Part shown: positions 11,600-38,664 of the stretch, one piece after another | Layout: the number at the start of each line of letters is the position of its first letter | Position numbering within the stretch: the stretch's first letter is position 1 | Source: a bacterium | Lineage (GTDB): Bacteria; Desulfobacterota; Deferrisomatia; Deferrisomatales; BM512 | NCBI GenBank assembly: GCA_004322275.1 | Contig: SCTA01000039.1 | Span: forward strand, 1-39,511 | Direction of reading: 5' to 3' | Length of the DNA: 39,511 bases | Made by a program: the position numbers and the translations under genes | Notes under the pieces: generated by a model | The model's database searches: none | Told to the model about the DNA's origin: nothing | What the model saw: the letters and a program-made list of their open reading frames with translations, nothing else

Positions 11600-14500
11600 A
11601 TGGGTATCAGCAGAAGAGACTTTCTAAAACTCTCCGGAGCAGGGATTGCGACCGGCGCACTGGGGGCGGCGGGCGTCAAGTCCGCACAGGCCGCCGGTGA
11701 AGAACCGCTTCGCACCAACGGCTCCAAAAAAACCACCACAATCTGCCCTTACTGCGCAGTCGGTTGCGGCATCATCGTTGAAGCCAAAGACGGCAAGGTA
11801 ATCAACATCGAGGGAGATCCCGATCATCCGATCAATCAGGGAACCCTCTGTCCCAAGGGCGCTTCCATCCAGCAGCTTCGCGAGAACCCCAAGCGTCTCA
11901 CGAAGCCCCTTTACCGTGGCAAGGGCGCGAGCGAGTGGAAGGAAGTCGAGTGGGGCTGGGCGCTGGAAGAGATAGCGAAGCGCACCAAGGCCACCCGCGA
12001 CGCCAACTACGAGATTAACTCGGTCTTAAAGACCCCCGAGGGCGACAAGAAAGTCGTCGTGAACCGCGTCTCCGCAATAGCGAGCGTCGGCAGCGCCGCG
12101 ATGGACAACGAGGAGTGCTACCTCTATCAGAAGTTCCTCCGCGGTCTCGGCGTAGTCCACATCGAGCATCAGGCCCGGCTCTGACACAGCTCCACTGTCG
12201 CCAGTCTGGCGGAGAGCTTCGGTCGCGGCGCAATGACGAACCACTGGATCGACATCCGCAACGCGGACGTTATCCTCGTATGCGGGGCCAATCCCGCTGA
12301 AAATCATCCGATAAGTTACAAGTGGATTCAGGAGGCGATCGACAAGCGCGGCGCAAAGCTCGTAGTCATCGACCCCCGCTTCACGCGCACGGCTTCCCAC
12401 GCGCACAATTACGTCCCTGTCCGTTCGGGCGCGAACATCGCCTTCTTCGGCGGGCTGATCAACTACATTCTGCAAAACAACCTTATGCAGAAAGATTACG
12501 TCGTCAACTACACCAACGCAGCCTTCCTCGTTAACCCCGATTTAAAGATGCCCGGCGAACTCGACGGTCTCTTCTCGGGTTACGACCCCGCGACCAGAAA
12601 GTACGACAAGGCCACTTGGGCCTACCAGAAAGACCCCAAGACCGAGATAATCAAGAAAGACAAGACTCTCTCCGATCCCAACTGCGTCTTCCAGTTGATG
12701 AAGAAGCATTACTCGCGCTACACCATCGAGACCGCGTCCAGCGTAACCGGCGCCACCGTGGAGCAGCTCAAGGCGGCTTACGTGGTCATCGCTTCCACCG
12801 GCAAGGCCGACAAGGCGGGAACCCTTCTCTACGCGATGGGCCTCACCCAGTCCACCACCGGCGTCCAGAACATCCGCGGCGGATCGATAGTACAGCTTCT
12901 TCTCGGCAACATCGGCATCGCGGGCGGCGGCGTCAACGCCATGCGCGGCGAATCCAACGTTCAGGGTTCAACCGACCAGGGGCTTCTTTTCCATATCCTC
13001 CCCGGCTACCTCCCGATGCCGACCTCGGAGCTCCAGACCCTCGACGCCTACAAAGAAAAGCACGTGCCCAAGACCAAGGAGCCCCAGTCCGTCAACTGGT
13101 GGGGCAACCGCGGCAAGTACATCACCAGCTACCTCAAGGCGATCTACGGCCCGAACGCCCTGAAGAACAACGACTTTCAGTACAGCCTGATGCCCAAGCC
13201 CGACATGGGCGTCAACTACTCCTGGCTGATGATCTTCGACCGCATGTACGACAAGAAGATAAAGGGTTTCTTCGCCTGGGGCCAGAATCCCGCCTGCTGC
13301 ACCTCCAACGCGGTCAAGACAAGAAAGGCCCTCTCAAATCTCGACTGGATGGTTGCCGTAAACATCTTCGACAACGAGACGGCGAGTTTCTGGAAGGGCC
13401 CCGGCATGGACCCCGCGAAGGTTGACACCGAAGTCTTCCTCCTTCCCGCCGCGGCGAGCTACGAGAAGGAAGGCTCCATCGCCAACTCGGGGCGCTGGGC
13501 GCAGTGGCGCTACAAGGCCGTGGAGCCGCTCGGCGAATCGAGGGCCGACCTCGAAATCATCGACGAGCTCTACCACATCCTCAAGGAAAAGTATCAGAAG
13601 GAGGGCGGCGCCCTTCCCGAGCAGCTCACCCTCCTCGACTGGAACTACGCGGGCAAGGATTCGGAAGGCAAGGCCGTTCCGATCGACGTAAAGCTCGTCG
13701 CCAAGGAGCTGAACGGCTCCTACTGGGCGAAGGACGGCAAGTCAAAGGCCCCCTTCACCGACGAGAAGACCCTCGACAAGGACGGCAAGCCCACCACCTT
13801 CAAGCAGGTCCCCGGCTTCGGCAAGCTCCAGGACGACGGGATGACCAGCTCCGGTAACTGGCTCTACTGCGCCAGCTTCAACGACGCGGGCAACATGATG
13901 GCAAGAAGAGGCAAGGACGACCCGACGGGTCTCGGCCTCTATCCCAAGTGGGCCTGGTGCTGGCCGGTCAACCGCAGAATCCTTTACAACCGCGCCTCGG
14001 TGGACCTCGACGGCAAGCCGCTCGATCCCTCCAGAAAGCTGCTGGCCTGGAACGCGACGGATTCCAAGTGGGTCGGCGACGTGGTCGACTCCCCGGCTAC
14101 GATCAAGCCGATGTCCGACCTGAAGGAGGGCGGCCTCCCCTTCATCATGAAGAGCGAAGGCGTCGCCTCCCTCTACGGCCCCGGCCTCAACGACGGTCCC
14201 TTCCCGGAGCACTACGAAGCTCTCGAATGTCCCGTCGCCGCAAACCCGATGGGCAAGCAGAGGATCAACCCCACCGCCAAGATATGGTTCAAGGAAGGCG
14301 GCAAGTCCAAGGCTGAAGACGTTTTCGCCACCTGCGACGCGCGCTTCCCCCTTCTTTGCTCCACCTACCGCGTCACGGAGCACTGGCAGACGGGCGTAAT
14401 GACCCGCAACTCGCCCTGGCTCCTCGAAATGCAGCCCCAGCAGTTCGTCGAGATGAGCCCGCAGCTCGCGAAGGAAAGAGGCATAGCAAACGGCGAAAAG

Positions 14501-14734
14501 GTCAAAGTGGTGAGCGTCCGCGGGCAGGTAGACGCCGTGGCGATAGTCACCACCAGACTGATGCCCTTCCGCATTGGCGATTCCACAGTCCATCAGGTGG
14601 GGCTGCCGTGGTGTTTCGGCTGGACGACCCCCAACGCGGGAGACACCTCGAACCTCCTGACGCCCACGGTTGGCGACGCCAACACGATGATCCCTGAAAC
14701 CAAGGCCTTCATGGTCGACGTAAGGAAAGGGTAA
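11600..14734 (+). CDS. fdnG: formate dehydrogenase catalytic subunit, selenoprotein (Sec at codon 195)
   Basis: This gene encodes 1044 residues when the in-frame TGA at 12182-12184 is read as selenocysteine. The frame continues without shift, and the flanking residues (HQARL-U-HSSTVASL...FGRGAMTNHW) align with E. coli FdnG around Sec196. The protein is the periplasmic molybdenum or tungsten bis-pterin subunit that oxidises formate to CO2. It has a Tat signal (SRRDFLK, residues 4-10, then a hydrophobic run to about 31). One [4Fe-4S] site uses Cys49, Cys52, Cys56 and Cys84. The C-terminal region carries the pterin-binding domain (YRVTEHWQTG...). It is the first gene of the operon with GGAGG about nine bases before ATG. 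A caller that treats TGA as stop would give two false ORFs, 11600-12184 and 12233-14734. Confidence in Sec is very high because selB is in the window. Confidence 0.97.
12199..12211 (+). promoter_or_regulatory. SECIS-like hairpin after the fdnG UGA
   Basis: A perfect 5-bp stem (CGCCA/TGGCG, 12199-12203 with 12207-12211) closes a three-base GTC loop at 12204-12206. The loop starts 20 nt after the last base of the TGA codon. Bacterial SECIS elements sit in the coding region just 3' of UGA, with a short apical stem and a G-U in the loop that SelB recognises. The position and loop fit that model. Confidence 0.75.
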
Positions 14735-14739
14735 GAGCC

Positions 14740-15498
14740 ATGAAGAGATACGGACTTCTAATTGACACCTCGCGGTGCATCGGATGCCGTTCCTGCCAGG
14801 TGACCTGCAAACAGTGGAACCAGCTTCCCGCCGAGGCGACGGTAAACCGCGGATCCTTTGAAAATCCGCCGGACCTCAGCAACAACAATTACAACAAGAT
14901 ACGCTTCATCGAGGTCGCGGAGCCCAAAAACGGCGTTGACTGGTACTTCCTCAGCCAGCGCTGCATGCACTGCGCCGACCCCGGCTGCGTCAAGGTCTGC
15001 CCCTCCGGCGCTCTGTCCAAAAGCGAAACCGGAGCGGTGGTCATAAACAAGGAAAAGTGCATAGGCTGCAACTACTGCAAGGGGGCCTGCCCCTTCAACG
15101 TCCCCAGGTACGACGCCGACCGCAAGGTCGCCAAGTGCCACCTTTGCAACGAGCGCGTGTTAAACGGGATGGAGCCCGCCTGCGCCAAGGGCTGTCCGCC
15201 AAAGGCGATACGCTTCGGCGAGTGGGACGCCCTTTTGAAGGACGCGAAGGCCACCGGCAAATACGTCTACGGGGCCGATTCTCTCGGCGGAACAGGGGTT
15301 CTCTACCTCCTCGAAGACAAGCCCGAGGCTTACGGGCTCGATCCGAGACCGTCCATCCCGCTTTCGGTAACTCTCTGGAAGGATATCCTTCGCCCCCTCG
15401 GCTGGGTGGCGATGATTGGCGCTCTGTGCGGCGCGGTCGGCCATTACGCAGCCATCGGCCCCAAGAAGCTCGATAAAGAAGAAAAGGAAGGTGCGTAA
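14740..15498 (+). CDS. fdnH: formate dehydrogenase iron-sulfur subunit
   Basis: This 252-residue electron-transfer subunit links FdnG to the cytochrome b. It holds four cysteine clusters, enough for four [4Fe-4S] centres: CIGCRSCQVTC near residues 15-25, CMHCADPGCVKVCP, CIGCNYCKGACP and CHLC...CAKGCP. A single C-terminal helix (PLGWVAMIGALCGAVGHYAAI) would anchor it in the membrane with the clusters on the periplasmic side. It has no signal peptide and is normally exported together with the Tat-bearing catalytic subunit. It starts five bases after the fdnG stop, and its TAA stop overlaps the ATG of the next gene (TAATG). Confidence 0.95.
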   Translation: MKRYGLLIDTSRCIGCRSCQVTCKQWNQLPAEATVNRGSFENPPDLSNNNYNKIRFIEVAEPKNGVDWYFLSQRCMHCADPGCVKVCPSGALSKSETGAVVINKEKCIGCNYCKGACPFNVPRYDADRKVAKCHLCNERVLNGMEPACAKGCPPKAIRFGEWDALLKDAKATGKYVYGADSLGGTGVLYLLEDKPEAYGLDPRPSIPLSVTLWKDILRPLGWVAMIGALCGAVGHYAAIGPKKLDKEEKEGA

Positions 15499-16124
15499 TG
15501 GCGACCAAATACGTCAAGCGATACAGCGCGCTAGACAGGCTGATTCACTGGACCATAGCGGTCACCTTCATAATCCTCGTTGTGACGGGGCTGGGCCTCT
15601 TCGAGAAGAAGCTCTCCTTCCTCTTCGACCTCTTCGGAGGAGGCGAGAACGCCATAGCGATCCACAAGTACATCGGCCTTCTCTACTTCGTTACGGCGCT
15701 GTGGTTTTCGCTGGCCCACCTGAAGGATTCGATCAGCTTCGACAAGGACGACGTAGCCTGGATCAAGGTCATGGGCGGCTACCTCAACAAGAAGGCGATC
15801 GTGCCCCCGATGGGCAAGTACAACACCGGGCAGAAGATTTTCGGCATCTTCGTCCTTCTGACGACGATAATCTTCGGCCTCACCGCCCTCGTCATCTGGA
15901 CTCCCGCGACGGCGGCCCAGGGTCTTGCGCGGGTGAGCTTTCTCCTACACTCGCTAAGTTTCGTGATTATGATAACCTTCTTCGTGGTACACGTTTACCT
16001 CGGCGCAATCGGCGTTGTCGGCGGCCTTGAGGGAATGATACGAGGGGAGGTCAGCGAGGCATGGGCAAAGAAATACTCTCCGAAGTGGCTGAGCGAACAA
16101 AAGAAGCGCGGCGAGGCCGGTTGA
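15498..16124 (+). CDS. fdnI: formate dehydrogenase cytochrome b subunit
   Basis: This 208-residue integral membrane protein has four predicted helices and passes electrons from the iron-sulfur subunit to quinone. Candidate haem ligands are His17 (DRLIHW), His56 (AIHKYIG), His151 (LLHSL) and His165 (VVHVYLG), matching the two-haem pattern of the family. The GKYNTGQK loop and the C-terminal GEVSEAWAKKYSPKW motif are both typical of FdnI/FdoI. The start overlaps the fdnH stop by one base. Its TGA stop overlaps the probable TTG start of the following DsbA-like gene. Confidence 0.95.
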   Translation: MATKYVKRYSALDRLIHWTIAVTFIILVVTGLGLFEKKLSFLFDLFGGGENAIAIHKYIGLLYFVTALWFSLAHLKDSISFDKDDVAWIKVMGGYLNKKAIVPPMGKYNTGQKIFGIFVLLTTIIFGLTALVIWTPATAAQGLARVSFLLHSLSFVIMITFFVVHVYLGAIGVVGGLEGMIRGEVSEAWAKKYSPKWLSEQKKRGEAG

Positions 16125-16726
16125 TTCGGAAACTCAAAGCTACGGTTTGGGCGGCCCTTCTGGGGGCCGCCTTTCTTCTTTCGGCGGCGCAGGCGGCTGA
16201 AAGAATGACGGTGACCGTCGGGGACTCGCCTTCCATAGGCTCCCCCGGCGCTCCCGTCACCATGATCGAGTTCGTCGATTACCAGTGACCCCACTGCGCG
16301 GCGACCGGTCCGGTCGTGAAGGAACTGCTGAAAAAATACGACGGAAAAGTAAGGCTGGTGGTGAAGTTCGCTCCCTACCCTTACCGCGACGGCGCTAAAC
16401 TGGCGGCGCAGGCGGCCCTCGCGGCAAAAGAGCAGGGCGCGTTCGCCCCCATGCACGAAAAGATGCTGGAGAACTACTACCGGCTAAACGCCGCCAGCCT
16501 CAAAAAGCTGGCCGGAGAACTAAGGCTCGATACTGTCCGCTTTGAAAAGGATATGAACTCCGAGCGGATAGTAAAAAAGGTCGAAGAGGACATAGCCCTG
16601 ACGCGGGGCCTTGAAATATGGCAGACGCCGACCTTCGTCATTAACGGAAGGCAACTGGTCGGCGAGCGCCCGATCGAGCACTTCGTACAGGTGATCGACG
16701 AAGAGCTGAAGGTTTTAAAGAAATGA
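16121..16726 (+). CDS. DsbA-like thiol oxidoreductase, selenoprotein (Sec-Pro-His-Cys active site)
   Basis: This gene encodes 201 residues if TGA 16286-16288 is read as selenocysteine (residue 56). The text around it is EFVDYQ-U-PHCAATG, exactly where DsbA/thioredoxin-4 proteins have their CxxC site, so the site becomes Sec-Pro-His-Cys. The same frame continues to a cis-proline motif (WQTPTFVINGRQLVG). A signal peptide (IRKLKATVWAALLGAAFLLSAAQA) shows periplasmic location. The TTG start at 16121 overlaps the fdnI stop (TTGA); an ATG at 16061 inside fdnI is possible but puts 20 charged residues before the signal. The last bases overlap the peroxidase ATG (ATGA). Known DsbA relatives oxidise, reduce or isomerise disulfides. 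Here the partner could be the peroxidase or a dehydrogenase subunit, which is inference. Confidence 0.9.
16302..16316 (+). promoter_or_regulatory. SECIS-like hairpin after the DsbA-like UGA
   Basis: A perfect 6-bp stem (CGACCG/CGGTCG, 16302-16307 with 16311-16316) closes a GTC loop at 16308-16310. The loop starts 20 nt after the TGA, the same distance and loop bases as in fdnG. This match supports recoding of this TGA rather than a nonsense mutation. Confidence 0.75.
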
Positions 16727-17787
16727 AAAAGACGGCGCTGGCTCTGGTTTTGCTTTTTTGCTTCTCACCGGCGCTGGCCGTGGAGAAAGAAGCCCTGAAA
16801 GGTTATCTTCTGCCTGAACTGGAGCGCCAGCCCCCCGCCGGGCTGGTCGAGCTCGGAAGGATGCTCTACTTCGACAGGAGGCTCTCCGGCGACGGGACGA
16901 TGAACTGCGCCACCTGCCATCTGCCGGAGGAGGGTTTCAGCGACGGGAGGGACGTTTCGGCGGCGTACCCGACGAACTCCCACTTCCGGAACACGCCCAC
17001 GGTGGTCAACGCCGCGCTCCGACCCCTCCTCACCTGGGACGGAAGGGCTCCCAACGTTGAGGAGCAGGCGATGGGGGTGATTAAAAACCCCTTCGAGATG
17101 AACATAAACCTCGACCTTCTGGAAGAAAAGCTCCGGAGCGTCCCCGAGTACCGCGAAGGTTTCAGGACCGCCCTCGGGACCGAGGTGACGAAAAAGGCGA
17201 TAGTTCGGGCGATAGGCGCTTTCGAGCGGACGGTCCTCTCGGGACCCTCCCCCTTCGACCTTTACGTGAAGGGCGACGACAGCGCGCTGGGCGAAGCCCA
17301 AAAGAGGGGGCTCGAACTCTTTTTCGGCAAGGCGAAGTGCATTGAGTGCCACGACGGCCCGAACTTCGGCGCGAACAAGCTCGAAAGCCTCGGTCTTCCT
17401 CCCAATCCGAAGGTGGCCGAGGACCCCCGGAGGGGCGTATCGATGCGCTACGCCGCCAGGACCTTCGGAGAGACTATGCCCTTCGGCGAGGAGGACGACT
17501 GGGGACTCGCTTTCGTCACAGGCGACCCGAGGGACAAGGGAGTGTTTCTGGTCCCGAGCCTTAGGCAGCTCGTGAGGACCGCGCCTTACGGCCACGACGG
17601 CAGGTTCCCGGATCTCGATTCGATAATCGACCTTCAGGACAAGGGCGGGGGCACGATGCCCGGAAAATCGGAAAAACTGAAACCTCTCGGGCTGACCGCC
17701 GAAGAGAGGGCTGACCTGAAGAGCTTCCTCGAAAGCCTTACCGGCCCCGATCCGGTGGTGAAGCCGAAACTGCCCGCGTACCCTTGA
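16723..17787 (+). CDS. di-heme cytochrome c peroxidase / MauG-family protein
   Basis: This exported protein has 354 residues with a signal peptide (MKKTALALVLLFCFSPALA). Two c-type haem sites are visible, C62-x2-C65-H66 (CATCH) and CIECH near residue 206. Family motifs include LGRMLYFDRRLSGDGTMNCATCH, the RNTPTVVNA segment, and GHDGRFPDLDSII near the end. Bacterial di-heme peroxidases reduce hydrogen peroxide to water with electrons from a small cytochrome or cupredoxin; MauG relatives oxidise protein side chains. The length favours a classical peroxidase. The ATG overlaps the stop of the selenoprotein DsbA-like gene, so the two are probably translationally coupled. A role in protecting the selenium-containing dehydrogenase from oxidants is a reasonable but unproven idea. 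Confidence 0.92.
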   Translation: MKKTALALVLLFCFSPALAVEKEALKGYLLPELERQPPAGLVELGRMLYFDRRLSGDGTMNCATCHLPEEGFSDGRDVSAAYPTNSHFRNTPTVVNAALRPLLTWDGRAPNVEEQAMGVIKNPFEMNINLDLLEEKLRSVPEYREGFRTALGTEVTKKAIVRAIGAFERTVLSGPSPFDLYVKGDDSALGEAQKRGLELFFGKAKCIECHDGPNFGANKLESLGLPPNPKVAEDPRRGVSMRYAARTFGETMPFGEEDDWGLAFVTGDPRDKGVFLVPSLRQLVRTAPYGHDGRFPDLDSIIDLQDKGGGTMPGKSEKLKPLGLTAEERADLKSFLESLTGPDPVVKPKLPAYP

Positions 17788-25377: not shown

Positions 25378-26073
25378 ATGTTGCCAAAAGAATATCGAGA
25401 TAGAATTACAATGCTTGTTCAATCGGAGATGAATTATTTTTACAGGGCAATTAATGAGAGGGATAATTCAATAACGCGACATATCGCCAGAACCGACCCA
25501 AAAGTTATTAGTGAGGCCAATTGTAAGATTATAGAAGCAGAGCACATGTTAATAAGAGTTGTTGCAGATAAATTGCTTGGTTCCATTGAGCAACTAGGTG
25601 TACCAAACAAGTGTAGCCTAGAGAAAGATTGTATCGATGAGGCGAAATATTTTATACAGGAATTAATAAAACGAGCTAATTACCCAGATAATCCAGCAGC
25701 GATAGCCTCCTGCGAGTCAATGCTTATGGCTGAGGTCGAAGGTAAAATTAGGGTATATGCAAGAGATAAGTTAAGAATAAATGAAAGAATTATTGAAAAA
25801 CAAAAATACCAGAAAGATAGTTCCGCAATCAAGGAAAGGCAAGACCAGCCGTCTCCTACTGATATTAAAAAATGGAATATATACATAAAGTCTTTGGGCA
25901 ACGAAACTATAAAGAGGCGTCTTTCTGTGCTGTTATTGCATATTCAAGGAAAACCTAGAAGTGAGATTGAAAAATCACACCCAGGGTGCAATATTTCACG
26001 CGATATAAAGAGGGCAAAAAAACATGTTCAGGAGATACGCGAAAAACGCCCAGACCTTGTGGACCTGTCCTAG
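25378..26073 (+). CDS. unknown protein, low-GC accessory gene
   Basis: This gene encodes 231 residues and is clearly AT-rich compared with its neighbours, which suggests horizontal acquisition. AGGAG lies nine bases before ATG. No signal peptide or membrane helix is seen; the protein is charged and helical. The C-terminal stretch IKRRLSVLLLHIQGKPRSEIEKSHPGCNISRDIKRAKKHVQEI has helix-turn-helix character, so a DNA-binding or phage/plasmid-type role is possible. I do not recognise the family. It is flanked upstream by repeats A and B and the hairpin cluster. Confidence 0.7.
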   Translation: MLPKEYRDRITMLVQSEMNYFYRAINERDNSITRHIARTDPKVISEANCKIIEAEHMLIRVVADKLLGSIEQLGVPNKCSLEKDCIDEAKYFIQELIKRANYPDNPAAIASCESMLMAEVEGKIRVYARDKLRINERIIEKQKYQKDSSAIKERQDQPSPTDIKKWNIYIKSLGNETIKRRLSVLLLHIQGKPRSEIEKSHPGCNISRDIKRAKKHVQEIREKRPDLVDLS

Positions 26074-31445: not shown

Positions 31446-33959
31446 TTGAAAAAACTAATGGCCGCACTTTTGATTTTAACGCTAGCTTACACTCTGACCG
31501 CCTGCGGTGGTGGGGGCGGAGGAGGAAGTGAAGCCCCAAGATCGGCAGCCATTAAAGGCACTGTCGTTAGCTCTTCTGACCTTTCGGCTGCAAGGGGAGG
31601 TTTGGGGCTAATTGTAAATGGAAAGTACTCAGTACCTGGGGCAGTCTGCACACTTGAAGGCACTGATAAGAGTGGAATAACAGACATCGAAGGCAATTTC
31701 ACGATAAACGGCGTCGGAAATGGTAGCTATATCCTCATCTGTAAAAAAGAACTCTCCACTGGCGACGTTCTCGTCGCTCTTCAGATTCTTGAGGTTACCA
31801 AGGACGGAACTGACAGCAATACAGTCAATCTAGGAACCATAGAGATTTCAGCGGAAGGCACAATAGTTGGCAAAGCGTTACTAATCGGCCAATCTGAACA
31901 TACGGGCATAAAAATCTATGTGCCAGGCACTTCATTTCAAGCCAACACTGATGCAACTGGAGCTTTCAAGCTAGACCTTCCGGCCGGAACCTATGACCTC
32001 GTTGTTGAAAAGACCGGGTACACTTATCAGAATCTAGTCGGAATTATGGTAAAGCCCGGACGTACTACGGATATAGGGGTACTGCCCCTGAGTGTCTCAA
32101 TCGGGCCGTCCGGCAGCGTCTCGATCAATAACGGAGCCGAGCTTTCAGACTCAGAGACAGTTACGCTGTCCATTACCCATTCCGCTGATGCTTCTCTAAT
32201 GAAAATCAGCGAAAAAGCCGACTTCTCCGATGTCGCTTCCTGGGAACCAGTTGCCGAAGCCAAGGATTACACGTTTGCATCGGGCGGGTTGAAGACCATA
32301 TATATAATTTTTGAAAACGCCGATGGACTTGAAAGTGGAATATCCTCAGACTCCATTAATCTAAATATCGATGCTCCGATTGCGGCAACACTATTGGTAA
32401 ACGCACCGCAGAACACGCCTGTCAGTATCACCCTTTCTGCCACCGACCCAGACGGGGTGACAGATTTCAACTTTTCCATCATCTCGCCTCCCGTAAACGG
32501 TGCACTATCCGTTATTCCCAATGAATCCAGAGAGTCAGTCGTAGTCACCTACACTCCGAACGCCGGTTTTTATGGCTATGACAGCTTCACCTACATGGCA
32601 AGCGATGGCTTAAAAGAAGATTCTGCAATCATTGAAATATCAGTTATGGCCACGTGGTATGAAGATAAAGATGGCGACGGTTACACATCCGGCCTAACAT
32701 TGACTTCCACTAGCCCGCCCGGGGGATATGTATTGTCAACATCGCTTGTTAATACAACCTCTGTTGACTGTAATGACCTTTCTCCATTCATTAATCCCGA
32801 AGAAGTAGAAATTTGTGACGGAGTAGATAACGACTGCTCAGGGGGAATTGACGACGGTCTTGTTCCGCCTCTGGCAGAAGAACAGCTCGGCGTATGCTCT
32901 GGCGCCACCAAACTTTGCAGCGGTGCAAGCGGATGGGAAGAGCCGGATTATTTTATTTTCTCAAGTGAGTATGAGTCATCCGAAACCAACTGCGACTCAA
33001 AGGACAATGATTGCGACGGGCAGATTGACGAAGGACTGCTGACCGAATACTGGCTTGATCTGGACGGTGACTCCTACGGCGACCCATTGAATAATACCAA
33101 TTCTTGCACTCAATCCGCTACATACGTCTTGAACTCCAACGATTGCGATGATTCCGAAACATTGGTTAATCCTGGCGCCTATGAAATTGACAATGGAATA
33201 GACGACGATTGCGACGGGCAGGTAGACGAGATGGCGGTGGGGGATATCTATGTGGAACCAAAGACAGGCTTTAAATTCTCATGGGTTCCGCCAGGAAGTT
33301 TTCAGATGGGAGACACTTATGGCGACGGAAATCCAAATGAGCTACCTGTGCATACTGTTACCTTTTCAAAAGGCTTCTGGATGGGCACCTATGAAATAAC
33401 ACAGGAGCAATGGAAGGCATTTATGGGTAATAACCCAAGCTATTACAAAAGTTCTTCTCCGGGCTTGCCCATTGAACAGGTTAGCTTGTACGATATAATT
33501 GAATTCATTGGGGAACTTAAACTGAAAACCGGAGTCGCCTTTCGCCTACCAAGCGAAGCAGAGTGGGAGTACGCCGCCAAGGGAGCGCAATACTCCGGCA
33601 CAAAATACTCAGGGACCAGCGACCAGTCCATGCTGCTAGATTACGCCTGGTTTCAACCATACTCTCCAGTTACCTCTGCTGGTTCTACGCATCCGGTAGG
33701 ACAAAAACTACCAAACGCCCTTGGGCTTTATGATATGAGCGGTAATGTCATGGAATGGGTGGAGGACTATTATTCCTCCTCCTATAGCTTAGCGCCAACG
33801 GACGGCAGTGCTTGGGGAGATGGTTCCCAAGGCTGGGCAATTGCGCGCGGCGGAGATTGGTACAGTATAAGCAAATATGTGCGCACTACATGGCGATTTT
33901 CAACAAGTCCAAGCCAGAGGAACCGATATATTGGATTGAGATTTGTTATAGAACCATAA
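31446..33959 (+). CDS. multidomain surface lipoprotein with MopE-like motifs and an FGE-sulfatase domain
   Basis: This is an 837-residue exported lipoprotein. The TTG start has AAGGAG six bases upstream. The signal is MKKLMAALLILTLAYTLTAC with the lipobox LTAC, then a glycine spacer. Residues 35-210 hold two carboxypeptidase-regulatory/CnaB-like beta domains (GITDIEGNFTINGVGNGSY, ATGAFKLDLPAGTYDLVVEKTGY). A cadherin/Ig-like domain follows (YTPNAGFYGYDSFTYMASDG). Next come repeated calcium-type motifs like those of MopE (DKDGDGY, CDGVDNDCSGGIDDG, CDSKDNDCDGQIDEG, IDDDCDGQVDE). The C-terminus is an FGE-sulfatase fold (PGSFQMGD, LPSEAEWEYAA, GLYDMSGNVMEWVED, ARGGDW). GC content is clearly lower than its surroundings, suggesting transfer. 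Adhesion or metal binding at the cell surface is likely; formylglycine-generating activity is doubtful. Confidence 0.9.
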   Translation: MKKLMAALLILTLAYTLTACGGGGGGGSEAPRSAAIKGTVVSSSDLSAARGGLGLIVNGKYSVPGAVCTLEGTDKSGITDIEGNFTINGVGNGSYILICKKELSTGDVLVALQILEVTKDGTDSNTVNLGTIEISAEGTIVGKALLIGQSEHTGIKIYVPGTSFQANTDATGAFKLDLPAGTYDLVVEKTGYTYQNLVGIMVKPGRTTDIGVLPLSVSIGPSGSVSINNGAELSDSETVTLSITHSADASLMKISEKADFSDVASWEPVAEAKDYTFASGGLKTIYIIFENADGLESGISSDSINLNIDAPIAATLLVNAPQNTPVSITLSATDPDGVTDFNFSIISPPVNGALSVIPNESRESVVVTYTPNAGFYGYDSFTYMASDGLKEDSAIIEISVMATWYEDKDGDGYTSGLTLTSTSPPGGYVLSTSLVNTTSVDCNDLSPFINPEEVEICDGVDNDCSGGIDDGLVPPLAEEQLGVCSGATKLCSGASGWEEPDYFIFSSEYESSETNCDSKDNDCDGQIDEGLLTEYWLDLDGDSYGDPLNNTNSCTQSATYVLNSNDCDDSETLVNPGAYEIDNGIDDDCDGQVDEMAVGDIYVEPKTGFKFSWVPPGSFQMGDTYGDGNPNELPVHTVTFSKGFWMGTYEITQEQWKAFMGNNPSYYKSSSPGLPIEQVSLYDIIEFIGELKLKTGVAFRLPSEAEWEYAAKGAQYSGTKYSGTSDQSMLLDYAWFQPYSPVTSAGSTHPVGQKLPNALGLYDMSGNVMEWVEDYYSSSYSLAPTDGSAWGDGSQGWAIARGGDWYSISKYVRTTWRFSTSPSQRNRYIGLRFVIEP

Positions 33960-35949: not shown

Positions 35950-37881
35950 ATGGCTCAACCAAAAAGAATCGTACTGGGAACCGCGGGCCACATCGACCAC
36001 GGGAAAACCTCTCTGGTGCGGGCTCTCACGGGAATCGACACCGACAGGCTTAAGGAGGAGAAGCTCCGGGGCATTACCATCGAGCTCGGCTTCGCCACCC
36101 TCGACCTTCCCGGCGGGAGGCGCATGTCCATCGTCGACGTTCCGGGCCACGAGAAGTTCGTGCGGACGATGGTGGCGGGGGCTTCGGGCATAGACACCGT
36201 GCTTTTCGTTGTAGCGGCGGACGAGGGGGTGATGCCCCAGACGAGGGAGCACCTCGAAATATGCTCGCTTCTCGGCGTCGCCAGCGGGGTAGTGGCGCTC
36301 ACCAAGGCGGACATGGTGGACGAGGAGTACCTGGAGCTGGCCCGCGAAGACGTGGCCTCCCTCGTAAAGGGAACCTTTCTGGAGGGAGCGCCGATAGTGC
36401 CGGTAAGCTCCGTCACCGGGCAGGGGCTCGACCAGCTTCGCGAGAGACTCTGCGAGCTGGCCGACGCGGTGCCCCAGCGCGACGCCAAGGGGCTCTTTCG
36501 CCTTCCCGTGGACAGGGTCTTCCCTATGAAGGGGTTCGGCACCGTCGTAACGGGAACCCTCCTCTCCGGGGCGGTAAAGCGCGACGACGAGGTGGAGATA
36601 CTGCCCGGAGGCGTGCGCGCGAAGGTCAGGGGGGTGCAGGTCCACGGTGAAGCGGTCGAAAAGGCCTACGCGGGAAACCGCACGGCCCTCAACTTCTCCG
36701 GCGTGAGCGTCGAGGAGATAAACCGGGGCGACACGGTCGTCCACCCCGGCGAGATAGAGCCCACCTACATGGCCGACGCCAGAATAACCGTACTTGGTAC
36801 CGCCAGAAAGCCGCTGAAGGAGCGTGACCGCCTGCGGCTCCACATCGCCGCGAGGGAGGTGCCTGTGGTGGTGGCGCTCCTCAGCTCGGAAAATATCGAG
36901 GGCGGCGAGGAGGGGTACGTCCAGCTTCGCTCGCGTGAAAAATTCGTGGCCTGCCCCGGCGACAGGTTCGTCCTTCGCGGCTACTCACCGGCGCGGACGG
37001 TGGGCGGAGGCGTTGTCCTCGACCACCACCCGGCGCGCCACAAGGGGCAAAAGAAAGAGGTCGCCGCCCTCCTCGAAGTGCTCGACAAGGGCGCTCCCGG
37101 CGAGAGGCTGAAGGTGTTTCTGGACCTTAGAAAGCACGTCGGGCTGACGCCGGAGGACGCCGTTTCGGCGCTGATGGTGACGCTGGAACAGGCGAGAAAC
37201 CTTCTCCAACTCTCGGTGCGCGACGGCCACGCTTTCGTCTCCGACAGAAAGGCCCAGCGCCACGTCAGTTCGGGGTACATCGCCGAGCTTTCGGCCTTCG
37301 CCCTCGAAATCCTCGCCGATTACCACAGACAAAACCCGCTCAAGAAGGGAATCGGAGCCGAGGAGCTTCGCAGCAAGTTCCCCGCTTACATCGACGACAA
37401 GCTCGTCGCCTTCACCCTGGAAAGGCTGGCCGGGGAGGGGAAGATAATCCTCGACGCGGAGAAGGTGAGGCGAAGCGATTTCACCCTTACCCTGAGCCTG
37501 GAGGACGAGGGAACCCAGAAGCGGATAAGGGAACTGGTGCGCGAGAAGGGGTTCGAGGCGCACACCCTGGAGACTCTTGTGGCCGGGACGGGTGAGAGCG
37601 CCGCGGCGCTTAAGCCGGTAGTGAATTACCTCGTGGCCGAGGGCAGGCTCGTCAGGACCAAGGAGGGTTTTCTCTTCGACGCCGCGCTGATGGAGGGTTT
37701 CGTCGAAAAGGTGAAAGACCTTCTGGCCGGAAAGGGGGAGATGGGGGTGAGCGACGTAAAGGACCTCACCGGCGCGTCCAGAAAGTACGCGATACCCCTT
37801 CTCGAATACCTCGACACCAACAAAATCACCATGCGGCGCGGCGAAAGCCGGGTGGCCGGGGTCAAAGGAAAGAAAAGCTAG
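35950..37881 (+). CDS. selB: selenocysteine-specific elongation factor
   Basis: This 643-residue GTPase brings Sec-tRNA(Sec) to UGA codons that carry a SECIS hairpin. The G domain shows G1 at residues 10-20 ([11 protein letters not shown]), G3 [20 protein letters not shown] and G4 TKAD. The EF-Tu-like domains II/III follow ([20 protein letters not shown]). The C-terminal third holds the winged helices that grip the SECIS RNA ([20 protein letters not shown]). It is slightly longer than E. coli SelB. Its stop touches the fdhD start. Its presence supports reading both TGA codons in this window as selenocysteine. Confidence 0.97.
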
Positions 37882-38664
37882 ATGTCCACTACCATATGGA
37901 AGATATCGCGCTGGAAGGAAGGGGTCTTCACCGCCTGCGACGACGAGGTGGTGGAGGAACTCCCCCTCACCGTCTTCGCCAACGGCAGGGAGATCGTCAC
38001 CCTCCTGACGCTCGGGGAAAACCTCGCGGAACTCGCGGTTGGTTTCCTGCGCTCCGAGGGGTTCCTCTCCGCGCGAGAGGATATACTGGAATTGAAGGAG
38101 GAAACGGGGGCCGTCCGGCTGAAACTCAAGGGGGATATCGCCCTCGTCGAGAGCCTCATGGAGCGGCGCACCCTCACCACCGGCTGCGGCAAGGGCACCA
38201 CCTTCTACCACCCCCTTGACGCCCTCCGGGTGAAGCCTCTCGACACCGGAGCCGTCTTCTCGCCGGAGGATATTCTGGCGAGGATGGGGGAGATTCAGAC
38301 CCGCTCCGAGGTCTTTCAGAGGACCGGCGGCACCCACAACGCCAGCCTTGCCTCGCCGGAGAAGACGATACTCTTTCGCGCCGACATCGGCAGGCACAAC
38401 GCCGTGGACATGCTCGGCGGCAGGGCGCTGCTGGACGGCCTTGGCGTGGAGAGCCTCGCGCTTTTCACCACGGGGCGCGTAAGCTCGGAGATACTCCTCA
38501 AGACGGCGAAAATGGGGGTGGCGGTGCTTGTTTCCCGCTCCGCCCCGACGGCCCTCGCCCTGCGGCTCGCCGAACAGCTGGGGATGACAGTTATTGGCTA
38601 CGTCAGAGGGGGAAGGTTCAACGTCTATACCGGGTCACAGCGGGTTAAGGAATGCAACCTGTGA
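37882..38664 (+). CDS. fdhD: formate dehydrogenase sulfurtransferase FdhD
   Basis: This 260-residue protein is needed for active formate dehydrogenase; it passes sulfur from a cysteine desulfurase (IscS in E. coli) to the bis-pterin cofactor. Motifs include EELPLTVFANGREIVTLL, AVGFLRSEGFL, FQRTGGTHNASL, DIGRHNAVD, TTGRVSSEI and SRSAPTALALRLAEQLGMTVIGYVRGGRFNVY. The catalytic loop reads TTGCGKG and has one Cys, whereas E. coli FdhD has two in a CxxC. The gene follows selB with no gap and would support the selenoprotein FdnG encoded about 20 kb upstream. Confidence 0.95.
   Translation: MSTTIWKISRWKEGVFTACDDEVVEELPLTVFANGREIVTLLTLGENLAELAVGFLRSEGFLSAREDILELKEETGAVRLKLKGDIALVESLMERRTLTTGCGKGTTFYHPLDALRVKPLDTGAVFSPEDILARMGEIQTRSEVFQRTGGTHNASLASPEKTILFRADIGRHNAVDMLGGRALLDGLGVESLALFTTGRVSSEILLKTAKMGVAVLVSRSAPTALALRLAEQLGMTVIGYVRGGRFNVYTGSQRVKECNL

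Follow-up and report, generated by a model that had tools for sequence, protein, structure and literature searches.

Organization of the fdhABC-dsbU locus

The window (the entire 39,511-nucleotide stretch of DNA that was analyzed) contains, on its + strand, an operon for a selenocysteine (Sec) formate dehydrogenase. The catalytic subunit is encoded by fdhA (11600..14734), which bears a TGA at 12182 and a twin-arginine signal (SRRDFLK); the Fe-S subunit is encoded by fdhB (14740..15498) and the cytochrome b subunit by fdhC (15498..16124), which scores above the TIGR01583 cut-off. The gene that follows (16121..16726, + strand), labeled dsbU here, encodes a DsbA-fold protein predicted to contain Sec, and is itself followed by a gene for a di-heme CCP/MauG-family protein (16723..17787, + strand). 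Overlaps join dsbU to both neighbors: its start codon with the stop of fdhC (TTGA), and its stop codon with the ATG of the next gene (ATGA).

Further 3' on the same strand are selB (35950..37881), encoding the selenocysteine elongation factor, and, directly 3' of it, fdhD (37882..38664), encoding a formate dehydrogenase accessory protein; this pair (35950-38664) shares the window with both Sec genes. The window also encodes an 837-aa protein (31446-33959) with MopE-type metal-binding motifs and a formylglycine-generating-enzyme-like (FGE-sulfatase) domain, as well as a 231-aa ORF (25378-26073) with no Pfam match and a third-position GC content of 0.35, compared to ~0.75 in neighboring genes, that was possibly acquired.

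The dsbU frame encodes a DsbA-type protein across an internal TGA

Read from the TTG at 16121 to the TGA at 16724-16726, dsbU specifies 201 residues, with a single internal TGA at 16286-16288 (codon 56) in the context FVDYQ-U-P-H-C-AATG, where U denotes Sec. By inspection, the N-terminus resembles an export signal (approximately residues 1-26), consisting of (L/M)IRKLK, a hydrophobic stretch and SAAQA, and the DsbU protein of a congener can start at almost the same site. The Pfam Thioredoxin_4 match spans the TGA (residues 34-194, 2.2e-27), and the DSBA match likewise crosses it; scores were above the curated cut-offs for both PF13462 (96.7 vs 23.2 bits) and PF01323 (60 vs 25.6 bits). An AlphaFold2 model built with 22 aligned sequences displayed a DsbA fold with high confidence (mean pLDDT of 91), comprised of a thioredoxin fold with a helical insertion and a cis-Pro, the latter within a TPT (Thr-cisPro) motif. 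The nearest structures were 3gyk (a Silicibacter thioredoxin-like oxidoreductase), Wolbachia alpha-DsbA2, BdbD and ScsC. These proteins lack Sec but share the fold (TM-score of 0.70-0.77 by query) and active-site position of DsbU, at a sequence identity of 22-30%; ScsC has an added oligomerization region that is missing in DsbU. The sequence-only reading had placed the TGA at the first position of a CxxC site, with the frame, the cis-Pro motif and the gene overlaps intact, and had described the gene as embedded in a formate dehydrogenase operon. All of this is confirmed, and the operon context is conserved in the clade described below; the di-heme gene that invariably adjoins dsbU had gone unmentioned.

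The TGA is conserved among the closest homologs

We scanned 395 genomes of one phylum for homologs of dsbU. The top 12 hits, among them the window's own sequence, scored 156-431 bits at 46-100% identity; each possesses exactly one TGA, always in this column. Below a gap in score (≤135 bits) were mainly Cys homologs, together with some others bearing a TGA, which belong to separate lineages. A 53-homolog tree grouped the 12 all-Sec sequences together (support 97/93), and the Sec/Cys state required 7 changes across it, at least 4 of which were forced by well-supported branches. A separate search for related loci in the genome_contigs collection returned one distant Cys homolog only. In two genomes, DsbA-like genes occur in tandem, with TGA in one copy and Cys in the other at the same column (L049:7599-9027 in G029; L067 in G180); since the tandem copies are close relatives in the tree, the arrangement resembles a recent Sec/Cys interchange. 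The proposed check of this column for Cys or Sec was borne out: the examined homologs held either Cys or TGA, and no other residue. An in-frame TGA in a column with Cys in homologs is the pattern by which bacterial selenoproteins are recognized.

A SECIS-like hairpin follows the TGA

A predicted bacterial SECIS hairpin (16301..16317, + strand) lies downstream of the TGA, with a 7-bp stem (16301-16307 paired with 16311-16317) and an apical GUC (16308-16310); the loop begins 19 nt after the UGA. The bSECIS criteria given in PMC13188914 are a loop of 3-9 nt, a stem of 4-16 bp, a G in the first two loop positions, a spacing of 16-37 nt and a minimum free energy of ≤-7.5 kcal/mol. The dsbU hairpin, with its 3-nt GUC loop, 7-bp stem, 19-nt spacing and energy of -11 kcal/mol, conforms to them. 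However, the folding energy was no better than that of shuffled sequences and RNAalifold favored a different fold, and we therefore excluded energy from the argument, building it instead on motif, spacing and conservation.

All 12 clade members have a hairpin with an apical GUC 19 nt past the UGA, and the apex bases GGTCCG are invariant among them. In two of the stem pairs both bases vary, and 5 sequences have a C-A mismatch at one pair; the covariation exceeded column shuffles only modestly (15 of 500), and the same bases encode Gly-Pro. The motif was absent at this place from the Cys homologs and from Sec homologs outside the clade. Considering both strands of the window, just 2 of 916 TGAs had a complete 6-bp stem capped by a GU apex downstream at the dsbU spacing, compared to ~0.16 expected from the background rate, and these were the TGAs of dsbU (16286) and fdhA (12182). 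Because the dsbU site itself supplied the search pattern, the fdhA hit alone counts as independent confirmation; the hairpin after the Sec codon of fdhA matches that of dsbU in geometry and in its GUC apex. Finally, the genome encodes SelA, SelB (from the selB gene in the window) and tRNA-Sec.

We also considered whether the TGA is a true stop, arising from a nonsense mutation, pseudogene formation or sequencing error. Nothing but the codon itself speaks for this view. The dN/dS downstream of the TGA, measured between the window and a congener, was 0.20/0.93, indicating that the sequence 3' of the TGA is translated and under purifying selection; together with retention of the TGA in 12/12 clade members, the hairpin and the Sec machinery, this led us to reject a stop or pseudogene, which we regard as scarcely tenable. 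The earlier judgment that a nonsense mutation is unlikely thus holds. Taken together, the conserved TGA, the SECIS element, SelA/SelB/tRNA-Sec, downstream purifying selection and Cys in the wider family strongly support Sec at residue 56. On these grounds, DsbU is almost certainly a real selenoprotein, in which SelB would read the UGA at 16286 via the hairpin at 16301-16317; the protein is predicted to be exported and to fold as a thioredoxin domain of the DsbA type whose active site is Sec-Pro-His-Cys.

DsbU compared with described Sec-containing DsbA-like proteins

Although its Sec assignment stands, the sequence-only interpretation needs qualification: Sec-containing DsbA-like proteins are not new, having been reported since 2005 (a Sargasso Sea set, PMC1088965; see also PMC1794560), and at least 4 Sec/Cys changes occurred within this phylum. 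They also appear, as DsbA-like form 1, in the family list of a 2026 review (PMC13188914). Compared by description, known DsbA-like selenoproteins (UxxC) have in common with DsbU the DsbA-family fold, Sec at the first position of UxxC and a predicted downstream SECIS, whereas the portions of these accounts considered here describe neither a formate dehydrogenase operon nor a di-heme partner. The nearest NCBIfam model, NF041057 (Rcas_1661 family thioredoxin-like (seleno)lipoprotein, DsbG-like), shares its domain and UxxC with DsbU, but its first ~80 positions have no counterpart in DsbU. With a score of 89.3 bits against a cut-off of 190, DsbU is not a member of this family; other tested clade members scored 76-100 bits.

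A di-heme gene invariably adjoins dsbU

The product of the gene 3' of dsbU contains a PF03150 domain and two CxxCH motifs, which place it in the CCP/MauG superfamily. It is neither MauG nor MbnH by curated models (220.4 vs 443.85 bits for TIGR03791; 192.8 vs 362.85 bits for TIGR04039). The site aligned with the Tyr of MbnH (6e1c) and the Met of Pseudomonas CCP (1eb7), which we take to be that of the second heme's ligand, varies among the members (Q, I, L, F or Y). Since no constant residue occupies this CCP-Met or MauG/MbnH-Tyr position, peroxidase activity of the di-heme protein is assumed.

The dsbU and di-heme genes are adjacent in all 12 genomes, and in 11 of the 12 the pair lies within a Sec-formate dehydrogenase operon. 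The order fdhA-fdhB-fdhC-dsbU-di-heme gene is found in the window and at seven further loci (L045, L046, L075, L076, L078, L081 and L082), and in L075 and L081 the di-heme gene is in turn closely followed by fdhE (by Pfam). At L079 and L080, fdhA-fdhB-fdhC is followed by fdhE, a fused fdhD-mobA, dsbU and the di-heme gene, with Pfam confirming fdhE and fdhD-mobA in L079. At L047, dsbU and its di-heme partner gene follow fdhB, an NrfD-type membrane gene and fdhA, in that order; on the 5.5-kb contig of L077 they come after fdhD-mobA (encoded on the opposite strand), a TOBE-domain gene and moeA. Both dsbU and the di-heme gene were absent from all 20 control formate dehydrogenase loci, taken from genomes outside the dsbU clade and covering up to ~7 kb on each side (less at contig ends), indicating that the di-heme gene is tied to dsbU rather than to formate dehydrogenase generally. 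The 12 genomes span six families (f1, f3, f30, f66, f100 and f102), and beyond close relatives FdhA is only ~60% identical to that of the window; owing to the relatedness of these genomes, the 12 cases do not represent 12 independent events. As judged from this gene order, dsbU and the di-heme CCP/MauG-type gene probably constitute a two-gene redox cassette that specifically serves the Sec-formate dehydrogenase encoded in their operon.

We found no paper describing a formate dehydrogenase-DsbA-MauG operon in the open-access literature. Thus, Sec-DsbA is already known, while the combination of fdhA, dsbU and a di-heme gene was not found described, within the open-access literature and the one phylum searched. 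Operons with multiple selenoproteins (grdA-grdB, frhA-frhD-hdrA, SAO and Tso; PMC13188914) likewise contain two Sec genes in one conserved operon; to the extent considered, the operon section of that review does not name the pairing of fdhA with dsbU.

In methylamine dehydrogenase clusters, too, an enzyme operon has a thioredoxin-fold gene (mauD) next to one for a MauG-family di-heme protein, but in the present locus the di-heme protein falls below the MauG cut-off, the enzyme is a different one and the thioredoxin-fold protein contains Sec. By this analogy, DsbU might serve in biogenesis, placing or isomerizing disulfides or readying CxxCH for heme, while the di-heme protein would modify a residue in formate dehydrogenase or in one of its partners, much as MauD and MauG act in the maturation of methylamine dehydrogenase. 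The nearby fdhE, fdhD and moeA genes are consistent with such a role, as is the pairing of DsbA-like and MauG-family genes, which we presume recalls the mau cluster. We nevertheless consider biogenesis quite unlikely, given the di-heme protein's scores below both the MauG and MbnH cut-offs, the missing Tyr in most members, the failure to recognize a MauE-like gene in the operons and the lack in the genome of a DsbB or VKOR to recharge an oxidase.

Periplasmic redox context

By inspection, export signals are present on FdhA, on DsbU and on the di-heme protein. Neither DsbB nor VKOR was found above threshold in the genome, making a classical disulfide-forming role for DsbU unlikely. The single CcdA/DsbD-type gene found in the genome lies outside the operon, beside two thioredoxin-like genes, with a DsbC-like gene on the same contig. 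That DsbU is a general periplasmic disulfide-forming DsbA merely located in this operon would fit its fold, its PH dipeptide and its rank as the genome's best Thioredoxin_4 match; the missing DsbB and VKOR, together with an operon position kept across several families, render this improbable.

In Desulfovibrio vulgaris FdhAB, a surface disulfide switch (Cys845-Cys872 of FdhA) confers protection against O2, and full activity requires its reduction (PMC11134731, PMC13397495). Both switch cysteines are present in the window's FdhA. They occur in 10 of 11 FdhA proteins with dsbU, the exception being L080, versus 23 of 27 without it, indicating that they do not track dsbU. The literature examined, as far as its considered portions extend, does not state which in-cell reductant acts on the protective disulfide of periplasmic Sec-formate dehydrogenase. 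Close FdhA homologs without an internal TGA are present beside TGA-containing ones (G108 contig 1, 1446173-1449196, and others); hence Sec and non-Sec forms of formate dehydrogenase coexist in the phylum.

Another link between these functions is seen in G036, in which the ORF directly upstream of fdhA (L086:8679-9965, - strand, contig 24) fuses a Cys-DsbA domain to a peroxiredoxin with an in-frame TGA at the peroxidatic position (TPVU). That stretch also includes Fur, desulfoferrodoxin and flavodiiron genes. The fusion separately links DsbA and peroxidase domains with formate dehydrogenase.

A possible role in protecting formate dehydrogenase

Protection or reactivation of formate dehydrogenase is our best inference for what the DsbU/di-heme pair may do. 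The di-heme protein would remove peroxide in the periplasm, and the DsbU selenolate would reduce oxidized thiols or selenols of formate dehydrogenase or of its partner proteins, a presumed target; a disulfide switch equivalent to Cys845-Cys872 is one possible substrate. The oxygen-sensitive formate dehydrogenase could thereby survive or recover from oxidant exposure. We place this mechanism just short of an even chance. Several observations argue against it: the switch cysteines do not track dsbU, most formate dehydrogenases do without dsbU, no reductant for DsbU is encoded in the dsbU operon, the di-heme protein lacks a constant residue at the CCP-Met or MauG/MbnH-Tyr position, and the UPHC site of DsbU is similar to the strongly oxidizing CPHC site of E. 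coli DsbA.

The same pair could instead protect the cell rather than the enzyme, with electrons from formate dehydrogenase feeding a di-heme peroxidase and DsbU either assisting or acting as a selenol peroxidase. The invariant dsbU-di-heme adjacency, the export signals on all of these proteins and the G036 fusion adjoining fdhA are compatible with formate-dependent peroxide reduction, yet the neighbors include the maturation genes fdhE and fdhD, plus moeA, and no dedicated electron carrier was seen between formate dehydrogenase and the di-heme protein. We view it as unlikely.

Taken as a whole, the explanation that combines a selenoprotein, a dedicated cassette and protection or maintenance of formate dehydrogenase is, in our estimation, evenly balanced between right and wrong. 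More tentatively still, the Sec-DsbA and di-heme peroxidase may provide a selenium-dependent periplasmic repair or defense that keeps the FdhA thiol switch or active site reduced and so sets oxygen tolerance. Periplasmic Sec-formate dehydrogenases are wanted for CO2 reduction, and an operon-encoded Sec-thiol oxidoreductase with its di-heme protein represents a candidate dedicated protective or activating partner for such an enzyme. The conserved operon is one in which one selenoprotein may serve another, and as such bears on the retention of selenocysteine use.
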